Assembly: GCA_034440575.1 (NCBI GenBank)
Contig: JAOTOL010001480.1
Span: 1 to 64,000 of the forward strand
Reading direction: 5' to 3'
Source of the DNA: Imbricaverruca yamaguchii
Lineage: Eukaryota; Arthropoda; Thecostraca; Neoverrucidae
DNA length: 64,000 bases
The notes below the pieces were generated by a model. It was given only the letters and a program-made list of their open reading frames with translations, was not told the origin of the DNA and did not search any database. Shown piece after piece: positions 2,383 to 57,616 of the stretch. Numbering within the stretch: the first letter of the stretch is position 1; the number at the start of each line of letters is the position of its first letter. Position numbers and translations under genes: made by a program.

Positions 2383-32144
<29,762 letters not shown>

Positions 32145-45828: not shown

Positions 45829-45980
45829 AGCGTGCTCTTCCCGGTGCTGTGTCGCCAGGTGAGTTTGGGAGCCCGTGTTCACGCCCACGAAGCCAAGACC
45901 CCCGACTACAAGACCATAACTTAGTCACTCCTGGCCTTCTACACTCTTAGCTTATGACTTCCTCTTTTACCTACTGACAA

Positions 45981-48900
45981 ATGAGTAATATTCTACAGTG
46001 GAACTGTAGAGGTGTGAGAACTAGCAATAACGGATTACAACATATTTTGCATCGTCGTACACCGGCCGTAGTATGCCTACAGGAGACCAAACTGTCTCCT
46101 GGTGCTTCCTTTTATTTAAGGAACTGCTCTGTTTTACGCAAGGACGTCGTTACCCACACGGTGGCACATGGTGGTGTACTTCTTGCAGTGCACCACTCAG
46201 TCCCCTTCCAACAAGTACACCTGAGATCAAACATCCAGGCTGTCGCTGCTCGGATGATAGTTAATCGCCATGTTACCTCCATACCATATACTTACTCCCA
46301 GGAAGAATCTTTCCATTTGCAGAACTGCTGCAAGAGGGAAATCAGCTCACTCTCCCGCTGATTGTATGCGGCGACTTTAACGCACATCACCAAGTTTGGG
46401 GCTCAGCAAATAGTACTGCTCGTGGACGTGCATTGGAACGCATTATCAGATATTTTCCCCTTGGTATTCTTAACACTGGAACTCCAACACACTTTACACT
46501 GCAAACAGGACAGACCTCAGTGCTGGACCTGACGCTTTGCAGCCCTGAACTTTCTCCCTGTTTAGAATGGTCGGTGGATGATGATCCAGGTACGAGTGAC
46601 CATTTTTCCGTTTGGACTCGCTTCATTGATGGTGTGGAAGCTGGTCGACGACCACCCAAGTGGATTATTTAAAAAGGTGACTGGAGTTCCTTTCAGTCCG
46701 ATGTCGAGGAGAGACTCGGTGAGTGCTCCGAAGGATTGGTTTCCATAGAGGTGTTTACAACCAGAACGTTACAAAGTGCTCAGCAATATATTCCTCGTTC
46801 GTCGGGCACGTCACGCCGTGTACCAGTCCCTTGGTCGTCTGATAAATGCCGAGATGCATTGCATGCTAGAAAGACGGCATTCTGTATTTTTACTCGTGAC
46901 AGCTGTATGGCGAATCTCGTAACTTTCCCCAAGGCAAGGGCACACGCGAGGCGCACAATTGCTGATTCCAAACGACAATCATGCAAAGCGTATGTCAACA
47001 TGTTGAACCGTTGCACCTCACTGTCATCGGTGTGGTCCCACATCAAACGTATCTCCGGCAAACTTACCTGTATCCCACTCCCCACACTGCATATAAATGG
47101 ACAAGATATTATTAATCCGAAGGATGTCGTCGACGAGATTAGATTGGCCTTCTCCGAACGATCGAAAAATAAAAACAGCGGACGTTCCTCGGAATACAAA
47201 GACCGGTGCGAAGCACTACCCCTTGAATTTACAGCAACAGATTATATCCATTAAAACAATCCATTCTCTATTTCCGAATTGACTGCCGCTATAAGCACCC
47301 TTAGGAACGCAGCAGAAGGACCCGACACCTTACACAATGGTGCTAATAAACATCTGCCGATTACAGCTGTAAACACACTTCTGCAAGTGTTCAACGAAAT
47401 GTGGGAAAGGGGAACATTTCCATTGACATGGCGGAGGGCGCTTGTCGTCCCTATCTCCAAGTCAAGCAAAACGGTAAAGGATCCACTTCATTATGGACCC
47501 ATATCATTGACCTGTTCTCTTTGCAAATTGTTTGAAAAAATGGTGAACTTGCGACTCATGTGGTTTTTATAACGTAACCATGTACTCACCTCGATACAAA
47601 GTGGCATCCGCAGCCACCGTATCACCTTTGGCCATATTTTAGCTCTTGATTCCGTTGTACGCCTGAGTTTGATCAAACGATGTCATACCCGCTGCCATAT
47701 TTTTCGATGTTGACGGCGCTTATGATACCGCATGGCGTCATGGTATCCTCATGAAGTTGCGCTAAATAGGCATAAGAGGCCCGATGGGGTTTTTCTTGAC
47801 GAATTTTCTAACTAATAGGACATTTCGGGTCAGAATAGGTGGCTACCTCTCTGACACCCTCCAACAGATTGATGGGGTTCCGCAGGGAAGTATATTGAGT
47901 GTGACTCTGTTCGCCATTGCCATAAATGATGTGGTTGATGCACTGCCAACATCGCTAGGACGAGTGCTATTCGTGGATGATTTTACAGTGTGGTTCTCCT
48001 CTCGTACGGTGCGGACGGTGGAAAGACAGCTCCTATTAACTGAAGTGAAATTGATGGTGTGGTGTGATATAACTGGTTTCACTTTATCCACCTCAAAGAC
48101 TACCGCTGTTCATTTTGTCGCAAACGCCGTTGCACAGACCCAACGATAAGGATGAACGGTCACCTCATACCTTTCAGATCTGCAGCCAAGTTTCTGGGGG
48201 TGTGCATGGATCGTCATGTTACGTATAAAACTCACATCACTGACCTTGTCAACAAATGTACAAAAGGTCTTCAGGTAATGGGTACCGTTTCTAGGTGTTC
48301 ATATGGAGCTGACAGATCAGTTTTACTTCTCATGTACCGATCGCTCGTGCGTTCTAAAATTGACTATGGATCTTTTATTTGTGACGGAGCGAGGGTCACA
48401 TCCAGGCGCTGCCTTGATGTGATCCACAATTCAGCCCTTCGTATCGTTACTGGAGCCTTTCGCACTTCACCGGCTGCTAGTGTAATGGGGGAAGTAGACG
48501 AGCCACCTCTTGCGCTACGCCGTAAGTTATTGGACGCAAGATACGCGTGCAATGTTGTCTAAAACCGGAATCACCCAGCCTATCGATGGATATTCTCAGG
48601 GACACTGAGAGCACGTCACAGGGCCCAGCGTGCAATATCGTTTTCCATTCGTATGATCTCAATCCTTCGGGAATGTAATATCAGGCCGCGTTCTGTAGCA
48701 CGTGTCATCACGCCGAGCACTGCCCATGGCACGTTGTTCCAGTGCAAACTGACGTGACTATGACTTGCTCAAAGAAAGGACATATAAACCCGGTGGAACT
48801 ACGCATGTGGGCATTGTAAAAAAATGAATATCACAACTTTTCGCGCATCTACACAGACGGCTCAAAGTCGGTCTCTGGTGTTGGGTGTGCTTACGTCAGT

Positions 48901-49650: not shown

Positions 49651-49794
49651 ACGTGATATACCCTCACCCGTGAAGATGGATAGCAAGGTATGATGGCAGC
49701 ACCGTAGATTGATTACAATTAAGTTATGGGCGCAAAATGACCCTAGATGTCGACGCGCCCCTAAACTCCAATCCACCACCACCACCACCATATG

Positions 49795-50010
49795 CCACCT
49801 AGAACTTAGAGGGATGTTGGGTCACTTCGTCTGACCTGGTGACCTGACCTGAGATGACCCAGGGTTAAAAATGTATGATGATATGCGGAAAAGACTGATA
49901 AACAGCTATGCGAGGTTTGGCCTTGCTAACCCGATTAGTATGGCGGCAAATTGGAAAAAACCGCATGGGGCAGACATCTGCCCCCCCCGGACGTGCGCGT
50001 GTTGAGTTAA
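49795..50010 (+). mobile_element. partial TTAA palindromic element, next to the LINE tail
   Basis: From TATGCCACCTAGAACTTAGA to TTAA (50,007-50,010) this matches the complement of 52,623-52,850, including GGTGACCTGACCTGAGATGA, GGGGCAGACATCTGCCCC and GGACGTGCGCGTGTTGAG. The missing part ends exactly at the LINE (CCA)n tail, so the LINE probably inserted into, or was joined to, this copy. Confidence 0.8.
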
Positions 50011-50627
50011 GGGAATTTAACGTTATAGTGTGTGACGTTAAGGTACTGAAGGAGGGGGGGGGGGACATCTCCCGGATGTATAAATGTGCTAGTTTTACTT
50101 TACTCCCTGGCAGGATGATTTGTGGCTGGGGGTGGGGAGGGCGATTTTGCGAGTGACGAGAAGTTGATTTTGCTAGGGTTTCGGCATTTGCTTGCTCTTG
50201 CCGAAGAGCGCTGAGGGGTCCGTGCGAAAAAGGAGGTAATTGTCCACACCACATATCACACCGGCCGCCGCGTGTGGGTCTTTAGTAGTGGGTTAGTCTA
50301 AAGATGTCATGCAGGGTCATCAGTGAGGTTAGACAGTGTTTGTCAATTCGGCTCATCTACGTCAGCTGTACCTCTGGGTAGCCGTTTTATGTTATGCTTT
50401 CGGAGTAAGTCGGCTCATTTACGTCCGACGGAACCGCTAGGTAACCGTTTATTTTGAATTGTAAAGCAAATCGGCTCATGCACATCCGGTGCAATTCGGG
50501 GATGGCTATTTGCGTCGTTCCTACGAGTGCATCGTGGACACGCATTGTGCGTGGGAGTCAGTGTTGGTGGTGTGGTGTTTACAATGATCCTGCTATTGTT
50601 GTGGCGCACATATGTTCAAACAACAAT

Positions 50628-51229: not shown

Positions 51230-53914
51230 CATGATGCGCCGTCGTAGAGGGAGGGGGCAACAATGGGCTTTGCTCACGTTCTCACATTCTGCACTGACAT
51301 GGGCACGTAGGCGTACTCACGTATCATTTACTCGCGCGCCTCCTTCGCAGCGGTCACGGTATACTTGCTGGCGTTGGGGAAGCGGCGACGGTGGCCCTCC
51401 ACTACCTGAAGCAGGAACTACCTCTGTTCCTCGTTCTTGGTGAGTTCTTGGCGACGCCCCGCTCAGCGAAGTCGTTGACGACCTGGAGTCCGCGGGCTCG
51501 ACGAGAGGCGGCGATGAACTCGGGCTGCTGTTCGTTAAGGAGGACGCTGAACTTTGCGATGAAGTCAGCGCGGTGCTCATTCAGGTGTTTGGTCACGTCA
51601 TCGTCCAAGGACTCCGGCGTCGTCTGGTCGATGAGGGTCCAGTAGTCCGCGAAGCGCTTGAAAGCTTGATATCTGGTCCCGATGATGGCCCCAGCCAGAC
51701 TCCGAACGCCTTCTGCAGCACCAGCTCAAGCATATGTTGGTGGCAGGCGAGATGCAGGACCACCCTTTCCAGTTTCTGCTCCAAGATGGTGCAAGCGCTG
51801 AGGGAGATGCCCGTGTTGGAGCTGGTGGTATCGAAACGCAGGGCTGCAACTCGGTGGGCGATGCCCCAGTCATCAAGCGCGTTCATCACGGCTGTCGCCA
51901 TGGCAAGTCCTGAGCCACTGGGCAGCTTCAGCACAGCGAGGAGCTTGGCTATCCCGTCACCAGACACCAGCACCGGAAGACGGCCAACATGCCCGCCTCC
52001 CACATCCTCGACGATCTTGCCGTCCAAGTGTACTGTCAGCGGAACATCAGGGCAGAATGCTTCCTTGATCTGTCTCGCCGCCTCCTCACGGAACTTCATC
52101 CGTGCCACGCAAAACGACTCCCGGTTGAGTACGAGTTCGGACGGATCGTGTCCGAGGCTTTGGGCTGTGGTAGCTAGGACATGAACAGCGGCACGACTGA
52201 AAATCTTGGTCCAATGCAGCAGACAGATCTGCTCTCATAAGGCTCTTGGTTGCGCGCCGCTTGGGCAAGGAGGCCTGGGTGAGCGACGGCGGCGGCTGCT
52301 ACTCGTCGGTATCGGACGCATTGGAGGAAATTTCGAGGGTTTGGCCGGCCTCGTGGCACTCGCGCTCATGTCGCTGGCGGCGCTGCTGTTCTTCGACAGC
52401 GCGATGTCGCTGTTGCTTGTGTTGCGCAGCGAGCTGGACATCAGCTCCCGCCATGCGTCCCGGCGTCCTGTCTCGCGCTGAGCAGTTAGGAATGCCCGAT
52501 CCTCTTCTATCCTGATCAGGGTGAGAGCGTCGGCATGCGCGATATCGAATAGGTCTCCCTGTTTCTCCAGGAACGCCTCTTCAGCTGCTGCCTGCGTCTT
52601 CGAACGTCTTTTACTGTTCTTCTTAACCCCCGCACGTCCCGGGGGGGGGGGCAGATATCTGCCCCCCCCCTCCGGTTTTTCCTCATTTGCCGCCAAACTA
52701 ATAGGGTTAACAAGGCCAAACCTCTCACAGCTGTTCATTGGTCTTTTCTGCATATCCTCATACATTTTTAATCCTGGGTCATCTCAGGTCAGGTCACCAG
52801 GTCAGGCGACGTGACCCAACTACACTCGGAGTTCTAGGTGGCATAACTTCCACAATAATTGGGCGATTGATTTCAAACTTATAGTATGTCATCATCTCAT
52901 CAGGAACCATAATATTTATGTCGGTTTTTTTGTAGTATTGACCTTAGGTTAGGTCGCTGCCATGTCTTCCCCATTATAAGGCTATGGTAAAATATACAAA
53001 TGTTTCCTAGTTACACATTTGCGCTCGGAATGATCTCACAACGGTTGTGGCATGTAGATGGAAGCTATGCTCAATGTTACCGCTGACATTTTTGCTCAGT
53101 GACCTCACCAAGGTCTCTGAGGTCACCTGAGATCACTACACATTTCTGCGCATTACGTCGCACTGCATTGAGCTAGAATGCGGAAATTACCGTCATTGTG
53201 CTTGTATCGTCAAGACGTGTCGATTGATACCTTACATGACCTCCCTAGGCCTTGACCTGAGGTCTTGAATTCATGACCTTGACCTAAGTTTCGGTTGACC
53301 TGACCTTAAATTACACCGCCTATTGCCGGTAACGCATTTCAAGGACTGTCGAATAGCGTTCGCCATTTGTTTATATCTGTTACACGTCCTGAGATATGTG
53401 TCAATATCTGAGTCCCACCTGATCTGGTCAAATTTGACCTAAGATGGCCCAGTGACCTGAATATTCACCTGAGCGAAAAAATGACCGAAACACTTTCGAT
53501 AGAGCCCGTCCCCAGCTATCCAACGCCGGTTTCTGTTTGTCGCTAGCTAGCATAGTTCCAGAGACCTTAGGGGGGGCAGACATCTGCCCCCCCCCCCGGA
53601 CATGCGAAGTTGGCGCGGACCACCGGACGTGCGAGTGTTAAGGTGCCTTCTTCGAAAAGTTTCAACACCTTCCGCGCCCTGTCCTCCTTCTGCATGAGAA
53701 TGTGCGTCCGAGTCCATAATGTGGCCACCTCTTTGATCGTCTCCGCGGCCGCCTCTGTTGTGGTCCTCTTGTTGTCCAGGTGAAGGTAGAGGAAAAATCC
53801 GAGCGTCTGTCGATTGGATGGGAGCTTTGAGCCGATCATGCTATTCTCCAGTTTTCCAAGGAGGTACACTGCAGTCTTTGACCTCGTCGAAGCCGCCATG
53901 TTGTCACTTGGCAA
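51230..53914 (-). pseudogene. decayed DNA-transposon-like gene, interrupted by TTAA element
   Basis: The minus strand starts ATGCCAAGTGACAACATGG (53,914) with YLLGKLENSMIGSKLPSNRQ and TLGFFLYLHLDNKRTTTEAA. After the 1,019-bp insertion it continues KKNSKRRSKTQAAAEEAF and GDLFDIAHADALTLIRIEED (about 52,560-52,500), then in other frames ARMKFREEAARQIKEAFCPD, VPLTVHLDGK, LPVLVSGDG, LDDWGIAHRVAALRFDTTSS and HLACHQHMLELVLQKAF (about 52,110-51,690), fading out by 51.3 kb. The LPSNR, LFDIAHADAL, FDTT.SNTG and CRHH-like blocks recur together in proteins of a multi-copy family that I recall from cnidarian and arthropod genomes, probably a DDE/hAT-like transposase. Frameshifts and the insertion inactivate it. 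Confidence 0.7.
52623..53641. mobile_element. TTAA-flanked element with palindromic ends (1,019 bp)
   Basis: TTAA lies at 52,623-52,626 and 53,638-53,641. Inward from each TTAA comes a short CG-rich segment (left CCCCCGCACGTCCC; right, complemented, CACTCGCACGTCCGG), then G run-CAGATATCTG-C run (left, 52,641-52,670) or C run-CAGATGTCTG-G run (right, about 53,570-53,597). The right end has an extra segment that repeats GCGNACGTCCGG. The interior is non-coding and rich in AGGTCA/TGACCT (about 14 by eye in 52,780-53,470). It interrupts the transposon-like gene at the junction of its N-terminal and middle blocks, so it is a genuine insertion. TTAA duplication is typical of piggyBac-type transposition, but I recognise no transposase. 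Confidence 0.75.
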
Positions 53915-57564: not shown

Positions 57565-57616
57565 CAACCTAACCTAACCTAACCTCGCCATCACCTAACC
57601 TAACCTAACCTAACCA
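57565..57616. repeat. interstitial (CCTAA)n, arthropod telomere-type
   Basis: AACCTAACCTAACCTAACCT, a short interruption (CGCCATCA), then four more CCTAA units. (TTAGG)n is the ancestral arthropod telomere repeat; the short length shows it is not a telomere. Confidence 0.9.

Follow-up and report, generated by a model that had tools for sequence, protein, structure and literature searches.

A high-copy, TTAA-flanked MITE family, very probably of piggyBac type, with G-run/C-run palindromes near its ends in Imbricaverruca yamaguchii

Introduction

The described system closest to the locus reported here is the piggyBac transposon of Trichoplusia ni (T. ni), both ends of which, in the structural account of PMC7351741, carry a 19-bp palindromic internal repeat that is bound by the cysteine-rich domain of the transposase. 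According to the same account, the dimerisation and DNA-binding domain contacts the tip box at bp 7-16, and cysteine-rich domains, acting as a dimer, hold the palindromic repeat of bp 17-33; the right end contains in addition a 17-bp insertion and a duplicated box, which is termed there a puzzling arrangement. Transposition falls to about half when 5 bp are added to the right end or when the inner box is randomised, and the hairpin that the enzyme forms lies at the TTAA tip and not at the sub-terminal palindrome (PMC7351741). Sub-terminal inverted repeats, in theory able to form hairpins or cruciforms, are also described for the human elements MER75, MER85 and Looper (PMC12324416). Starts of CCC and of CAC are both reported for piggyBac tips (PMC10813416), and the target duplications of Pokey, a piggyBac-type element, include ATAA and CTAA (PMC3849761).

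Here we analyse a window of 64,000 nucleotides (positions 1 to 64,000 of contig JAOTOL010001480.1, assembly GCA_034440575.1) from I. yamaguchii, in which an earlier note made from the sequence had pointed to a TTAA-flanked, piggyBac-like mobile element whose sub-terminal palindromes it took to be foreign to piggyBac. This last point does not hold, as such palindromes are on record for T. ni piggyBac (PMC7351741) and for MER75, MER85 and Looper (PMC12324416), and the surprise that they caused is thereby resolved; it is only their make-up from G runs and C runs that is unusual. No G-run/C-run palindromes at piggyBac ends came up in the literature searched, as far as those sources report, with Repbase and Dfam lying outside that search.

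Results and discussion

Architecture of the element and its ends

The element measures 1,019 bp including a TTAA at each border, as the earlier note had proposed, and 1,011 bp between them, and is built as follows (positions are those of the window).

52623..52626, unstranded: left TTAA target-site duplication; this side is TTAA in 30 of the 40 copies parsed
52627..52639, plus strand: left 13-bp terminal repeat CCCCCGCACGTCC, of which bp 5-13 are the tip box CGCACGTCC
52640..52670, unstranded: left sub-terminal palindrome (C, 11 G, CAGATATCTG, 9 C), from folding and the parse of copies
52671..53569, unstranded: non-coding interior with 14 AGGTCA/TGACCT half-sites; open reading frames wholly within the element reach at most 51 aa
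53570..53597, unstranded: right sub-terminal palindrome (7 G, CAGACATCTG, 11 C on the plus strand), from folding and the parse of copies
53598..53606, minus strand: second (inner) box CGCATGTCC, found at the right end only and set 27 bp further in than the terminal one
53607..53624, unstranded: 18-bp gap separating the right-end boxes, of this length in 40 of 40 copies
53625..53637, minus strand: right 13-bp terminal repeat CACTCGCACGTCC, from comparison of the ends
53638..53641, unstranded: right TTAA target-site duplication; this side is TTAA in 33 of the 40 copies parsed

On the plus strand the right end thus reads 7 G, CAGACATCTG, 11 C, GGACATGCG, 18 bp, GGACGTGCGAGTG and TTAA, or, inward from the tip, CACTCGCACGTCC, the 18-bp gap, CGCATGTCC, 11 G, CAGATGTCTG and 7 C. 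Direct reading bears out the palindromes with the run lengths claimed for them earlier (11 G and 9 C on the left, 7 G and 11 C on the right). The accompanying claim, that a motif lies directly outside each palindrome, stands for the left end, where the palindrome directly follows the tip box; at the right end the 18-bp gap and the second box intervene, such that the motif adjoining the palindrome is the inner copy CGCATGTCC and the terminal CGCACGTCC lies 27 bp further out. Specifically, the box begins at bp 5 of the left end and at bp 5 and bp 32 of the right end, and when the right end is shuffled 20,000 times, 324 of the shuffles contain a copy of the box with at most one mismatch, its exact distance not being demanded. 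The palindromes are centred, by arithmetic, at about bp 30.5 (left) and 56.5 (right), and at 23.5 and 26.5 in two partial left ends described below.

The interior has no coding capacity of its own: the longer reading frames that overlap the element (176, 115 and 97 aa) enter it from the interrupted host gene, and a Pfam scan of 20 open frames of the window found no transposase domain among those 20. Short, non-coding, present in high copy and bounded by inverted repeats, the family has the properties by which MITEs are recognized. The interior is also rich in AGGTCA/TGACCT motifs, which we take to resemble nuclear-receptor half-sites: the window copy has 14 where the remainder of the window predicts 0.87, and there are 17 in the family consensus and 13-17 in each copy, against 1.2 per kb in the flanks. 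The search made for AGGTCA together with MITEs gave no literature match. As a conjecture, the family may scatter nuclear-receptor-like sites across the genome.

Genome copies and target-site duplication

A DNA search of the 767-Mb genome gave 40 near-full-length copies including that of the window, the 39 others matching at 94-96%; these are the best 40 by score of 4,052 first-look candidates, a choice that biases low their mean divergence of 2.2% from the consensus. Thirty-nine copies were analysed with 400-bp flanks, and a single copy (L053), which is without its left end, was omitted from the 39-row alignment and from the flank comparison. A pattern search of the genome found 879 exact units of box plus palindrome (471 + 408), each of which may be either a left end or an inner right box, versus none (0 + 0) for the reversed pattern. 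All 20 of the units that were fetched, 17 of them chosen for short G runs, belong to the family over at least 580 bp at 85-98% identity, and older copies with CACG or CCCG tips and short G runs are also present. The copy number of the family in this genome is in the hundreds at the least.

TTAA stands on both sides of 28 of the 40 copies, and in four more the two sides agree on a word other than TTAA (ATAA twice, CTAA and TTAG once each). In permutations of the 39 flank pairs, matched variants averaged 0.31 and reached four in none of 20,000 trials. The flank words differ, or one side is unread, in the remaining eight copies, two of which are off-by-one parses: the parse misplaced the left tips of L039 and L055 by one base, and inspection by eye gives CTAA and TTAA, making the count of 28 one too low. 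Because 28 copies are TTAA/TTAA and four others have matched non-TTAA words, the 4-bp flank is a genuine target duplication, with TTAA preferred and the central TA nearly fixed, and on this evidence the target duplication envisaged in the earlier note is established. Left tips begin with CCC in 34 of 39 copies, and right tips, judged by eye, with CAC in all copies but one.

Could the copies have been spread by segmental duplication and not by transposition? Two of them (L042 and L056) have both flanks in common at 98%, part of one flank is common to L041 and L047 and likewise to L025, L029 and L039, and three same-orientation units with the interrupted run GGGGGAGGG, lying about 4.5 and 2.7 kb apart on another contig (C641:31471-38670), suggest a tandem duplication. 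However, no further pair among the 39 copies compared has both flanks in common, and the matched non-TTAA duplications vary from copy to copy, which together make segmental duplication a very improbable source of the family. Separately, the left flanks of L029 and L039 contain ends of a different TTAA element, whose G-run and C-run arms enclose a GGATTTC/GAAATCC core (TTAACACACGCTCTGGAGGGGG is one instance), beside or near the family insertions.

We read the element as very probably a non-autonomous cut-and-paste mini-transposon (MITE) of piggyBac type. In this mechanism a transposase supplied in trans would recognize the 13-bp tips with their box CGCACGTCC, would cut at the TTAA borders and would reinsert the element at a new TTAA, which would be duplicated in the process. 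If T. ni is a guide, the palindrome core GGGG-CAGATRTCTG-CCCC would be the site of a cysteine-rich-domain dimer, the left palindrome thus being a putative site of this kind, and the inner right box might dock a second, non-cutting transposase dimer that helps to pair the ends.

Variation and role of the G and C runs

At 35 of 40 left and at all 40 right ends a palindrome core was parsed, either unaltered or with one or two changes. It follows that the palindrome did not arise as a homopolymer artefact peculiar to this window, and the earlier concern that it might vanish as one finds no support, other copies carrying palindromes as well. Long G/C runs are error-prone in sequencing, and this speaks for an assembly artefact as the origin of the homopolymer palindromes in general; against it stand the 879 units versus none for the reversed control, and the fact that several copies have interrupted runs, GGGGGAGGG for example, and we consider it scarcely credible.

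The length of the runs is another matter. The G side has 5 to 16 bases at left ends (35 copies parsed) and 5 to 15 at right ends (40 parsed), and is sometimes broken by A or T; the commonest form has five G (29 of about 100 genomic places listed, counted by eye). Within the window, 12 of the 17 G/C runs of at least 8 lie outside the family ends. Given this variable run length, the five G of the commonest form and the 12 of 17 runs found elsewhere, the long runs would best be read as slippage expansions of a shorter G/C-rich palindrome arm, and the data suggest that arm length is free to vary among copies that have moved.

These observations bear on the possibility that hairpins (or G-quadruplexes) formed by the G and C runs do the work themselves, either in strand exchange or in recognition by the transposase. 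In single-stranded form both palindromes of the element do fold better than all 200 of 200 shuffles (z -5.8 and -4.0), and most copies have a parsed palindrome at each of their ends. The perfect arm of the left palindrome reads as 14 bp, compared with longest perfect arms of 7-10 bp in 30 Markov-simulated windows; the longest of the real window, at up to 38 bp, belong to an AT repeat, and the right palindrome has a mismatched central pair. The palindromes of the two partial copies fold less clearly, with 12 of 200 and 4 of 200 shuffles equally good. A working hairpin is nevertheless difficult to reconcile with a G side that ranges so widely and has only five bases in its commonest listed form, with the occurrence of long runs outside the family ends, or with the position of the enzyme-made hairpin of piggyBac at the TTAA tip (PMC7351741), and we regard it as quite unlikely. 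Of the two roles offered for the palindromes in the earlier note, transposase binding is thus probable by analogy, while a part in strand exchange finds no support here, the run length being variable.

Other ends within the window

Two further, partial copies lie in the window.

49791..50005, minus strand: left-end fragment of an older copy, 84% over 224 bp, with tip CACGCGCACGTCC and flank TTGA
9803..9871, minus strand: left-end fragment, 84% over 77 columns, with tip CCCGCGCACGTCC and flank TTAA

Scanning the window with TTAACMCNCGCAYGTCCGG returned four ends with at most one mismatch, namely the two of the element and these two, versus a best of three mismatches (2 hits) in 20 Markov windows. 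Similarity and motif searches of the window found no far end for either partial copy. Three further ends, each with TTAA, had been claimed; only two are counted here, and one of them is flanked by TTGA. Judged by eye, the sequences outside the four ends show no relation to one another, and similarity stops at the tips, so that the sharing of flanking sequence beyond TTAA, which the earlier note had named as contrary evidence, is not seen. Adjoining the 49.9-kb fragment, and excluded from the count of ends, is an 11-G run (50044-50083, with the G run at 50054) followed by ACATCTCCCGGATGT with a broken ACATCT core, which may be a decayed second end.

The insertion site and its surroundings

The element interrupts a decayed minus-strand gene (51405-53914), the two parts of which were delimited by homologue alignments.

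51405..52622, minus strand: 3' part of the decayed host gene
53642..53914, minus strand: 5' part of the same gene

An unbroken single alignment across the insertion junction was obtained for 69 of the 120 homologues listed (126 found), with gaps of a few residues at most at the junction save in one that is without 11 residues there; in the other 51 the insertion point is not spanned in one alignment. Judged from these alignments, the unbroken homologues amount to an empty site at the protein level, one that does not settle the TTAA duplication. With a single TTAA the host gene has a frameshift at the junction, while with both TTAA copies it runs in a continuous frame, in one piece, along its homologue P0001 (343 bits). 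This is not as a simple duplication predicts, and it counts against the reading of the element as a piggyBac-type MITE; the host gene has other frameshifts, and a junction of random length would be in frame with a chance of 1 in 3.

The decayed host gene matches no Pfam family, and its 126 homologues, among which are Artemia, aphid, barnacle, spider and metagenome proteins, are mostly unnamed; it is possibly a transposable-element protein. Elsewhere in the window, a LINE-type element on the plus strand (45978-48559) has an endonuclease and a reverse transcriptase; the best hits to it among ENA metagenome sequences are about 48% identical. Exons of a SIK/MARK-like protein kinase with a UBA-like domain lie on the minus strand (13577-13876 and 17246-17689), the UBA match being slightly under the Pfam cut-off, and their presence places the window in or beside a host gene. 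There is also a short AACCT repeat at 57566-57615, presumably the complement of the arthropod telomere unit TTAGG.

Search for a transposase partner

The genome has 119 matches to PF13843 (piggyBac transposase), and 18 of the best 30 are without internal stops; the presence of such genes speaks for the piggyBac reading. We examined 36 of these loci, 30 with 1.5-kb and six with approximately 2.5-kb flanks, and none of the 36 has the ends of the element, which counts against that reading. Paired TTAA tips, CCCATTA-like, were found at 22 of the 36, and the multi-copy piggyBac families of the same genome (L057-L086) have tips CCCATTAAAGCCGA or CCCATTAACGCCCG. The CCCATTA-tipped elements resemble ours in their TTAA flanks but are without the CGCACGTCC box, for which reason, with tips of CCCATTAAAGCCGA and similar, they were rejected as direct partners. 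In one CCCATTA-tipped family, whose transposase frame is open, bp 16-33 of one tip form an 18-bp palindrome, a position close to that in T. ni itself. Loose matches to the tip motif at five loci (L061, L067, L070, L088 and L090), each with two mismatches and no TTAA in front, were discarded. At two loci (L088 and L092) the CCCATTA-like pair around the transposase match encloses a second, perfect inverted pair, AGTACGTGTGGGCA, which is flanked by TTAA and has its two members about 2.9 kb apart. Searches for the palindrome patterns in viral contigs (three patterns: 0, 0 and 4 hits) and in prokaryote genome contigs (two patterns: 0 and 5 hits) produced nine hits, none with a tip box within 60 bp, and these were taken as unrelated palindromes.

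That no locus among the 36 examined (of 119) has these ends is what one might cite for another TTAA-duplicating superfamily, such as Kolobok, with a piggyBac-like layout that is convergent; Kolobok elements, too, duplicate TTAA (PMC6004289). Their tips, however, begin with AG or AGG in that description, which is true of no copy of our family, and in its sub-terminal palindromes and its 27-bp box repeat on one side only the family agrees with piggyBac. On tips and layout we reject membership of Kolobok and consider an origin in another such superfamily unlikely.

Comparison with known systems

Three features place the family with piggyBac: a short terminal inverted repeat starting with CCC or CAC (CCCCCGCACGTCC and CACTCGCACGTCC), a 4-bp TTAA duplication (the window's own site being ambiguous by reading frame), and sub-terminal palindromic repeats that are asymmetric between the ends. 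The family tips depart from the stricter tip motif CC[C/T]T given in PMC2872659. A piggyBac-like mode of action is well supported by the anatomy, in keeping with the interpretation first offered for this locus and now backed by copies, duplication and end layout. This is probably a new high-copy family of piggyBac-type MITEs, a statement that sets it against the literature and not against Repbase or Dfam.

Compared with T. ni piggyBac (IFP2; end sequences from PMC3078864), the element shares the TTAA duplication, the CCC tips, a sub-terminal palindrome at both ends and, in the right end only, a second copy of the tip box, the left box being single in both. In T. ni the left end has its box at bp 7 and the right end at bp 7 and 34, the corresponding positions in the element being bp 5, and bp 5 and 32, such that the two right-end copies are 27 bp apart in both; the palindromes of T. 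ni are centred at bp 25 and 53, an end-to-end shift of 28 bp as compared with 26 bp here. In contrast, the box and palindrome sequences are unrelated, the arms are G and C runs in the element, and the element encodes no transposase.

Among other described systems, the Pokey MITEs of Daphnia (mPok) are likewise piggyBac-type, about 750 bp long, with TTAA and some ATAA or CTAA duplications; they are likened here by description, and differ in that Pokey additionally targets a 28S rDNA site. PiggyBat of Myotis, as described, has asymmetric ends and palindromes beside repeated boxes, with a palindrome sequence unlike that of piggyBac, but its imperfect palindrome is on the left end only. Kolobok and the T2-MITE of Xenopus share the TTAA duplication and differ in their AG(G) tips (PMC6004289).

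The most useful part of these findings is the one-sided 27-bp geometry in unrelated sequence: unrelated letters with the same box distance, in 40 of 40 copies, are natural evidence that spacing matters, and the family provides ready-made ends with which box spacing can be tested. It is possible, if rather doubtful, that the cysteine-rich domain of a piggyBac lineage not yet seen reads GGGG-CAGATRTCTG-CCCC, and that the phased assembly of two dimers at one end, on boxes 27 bp apart, is an old, sequence-independent rule of the superfamily and not a quirk of the moth element. If this were true, the one-end two-dimer rule would have a counterpart in the 12/23 rule of V(D)J recombination.
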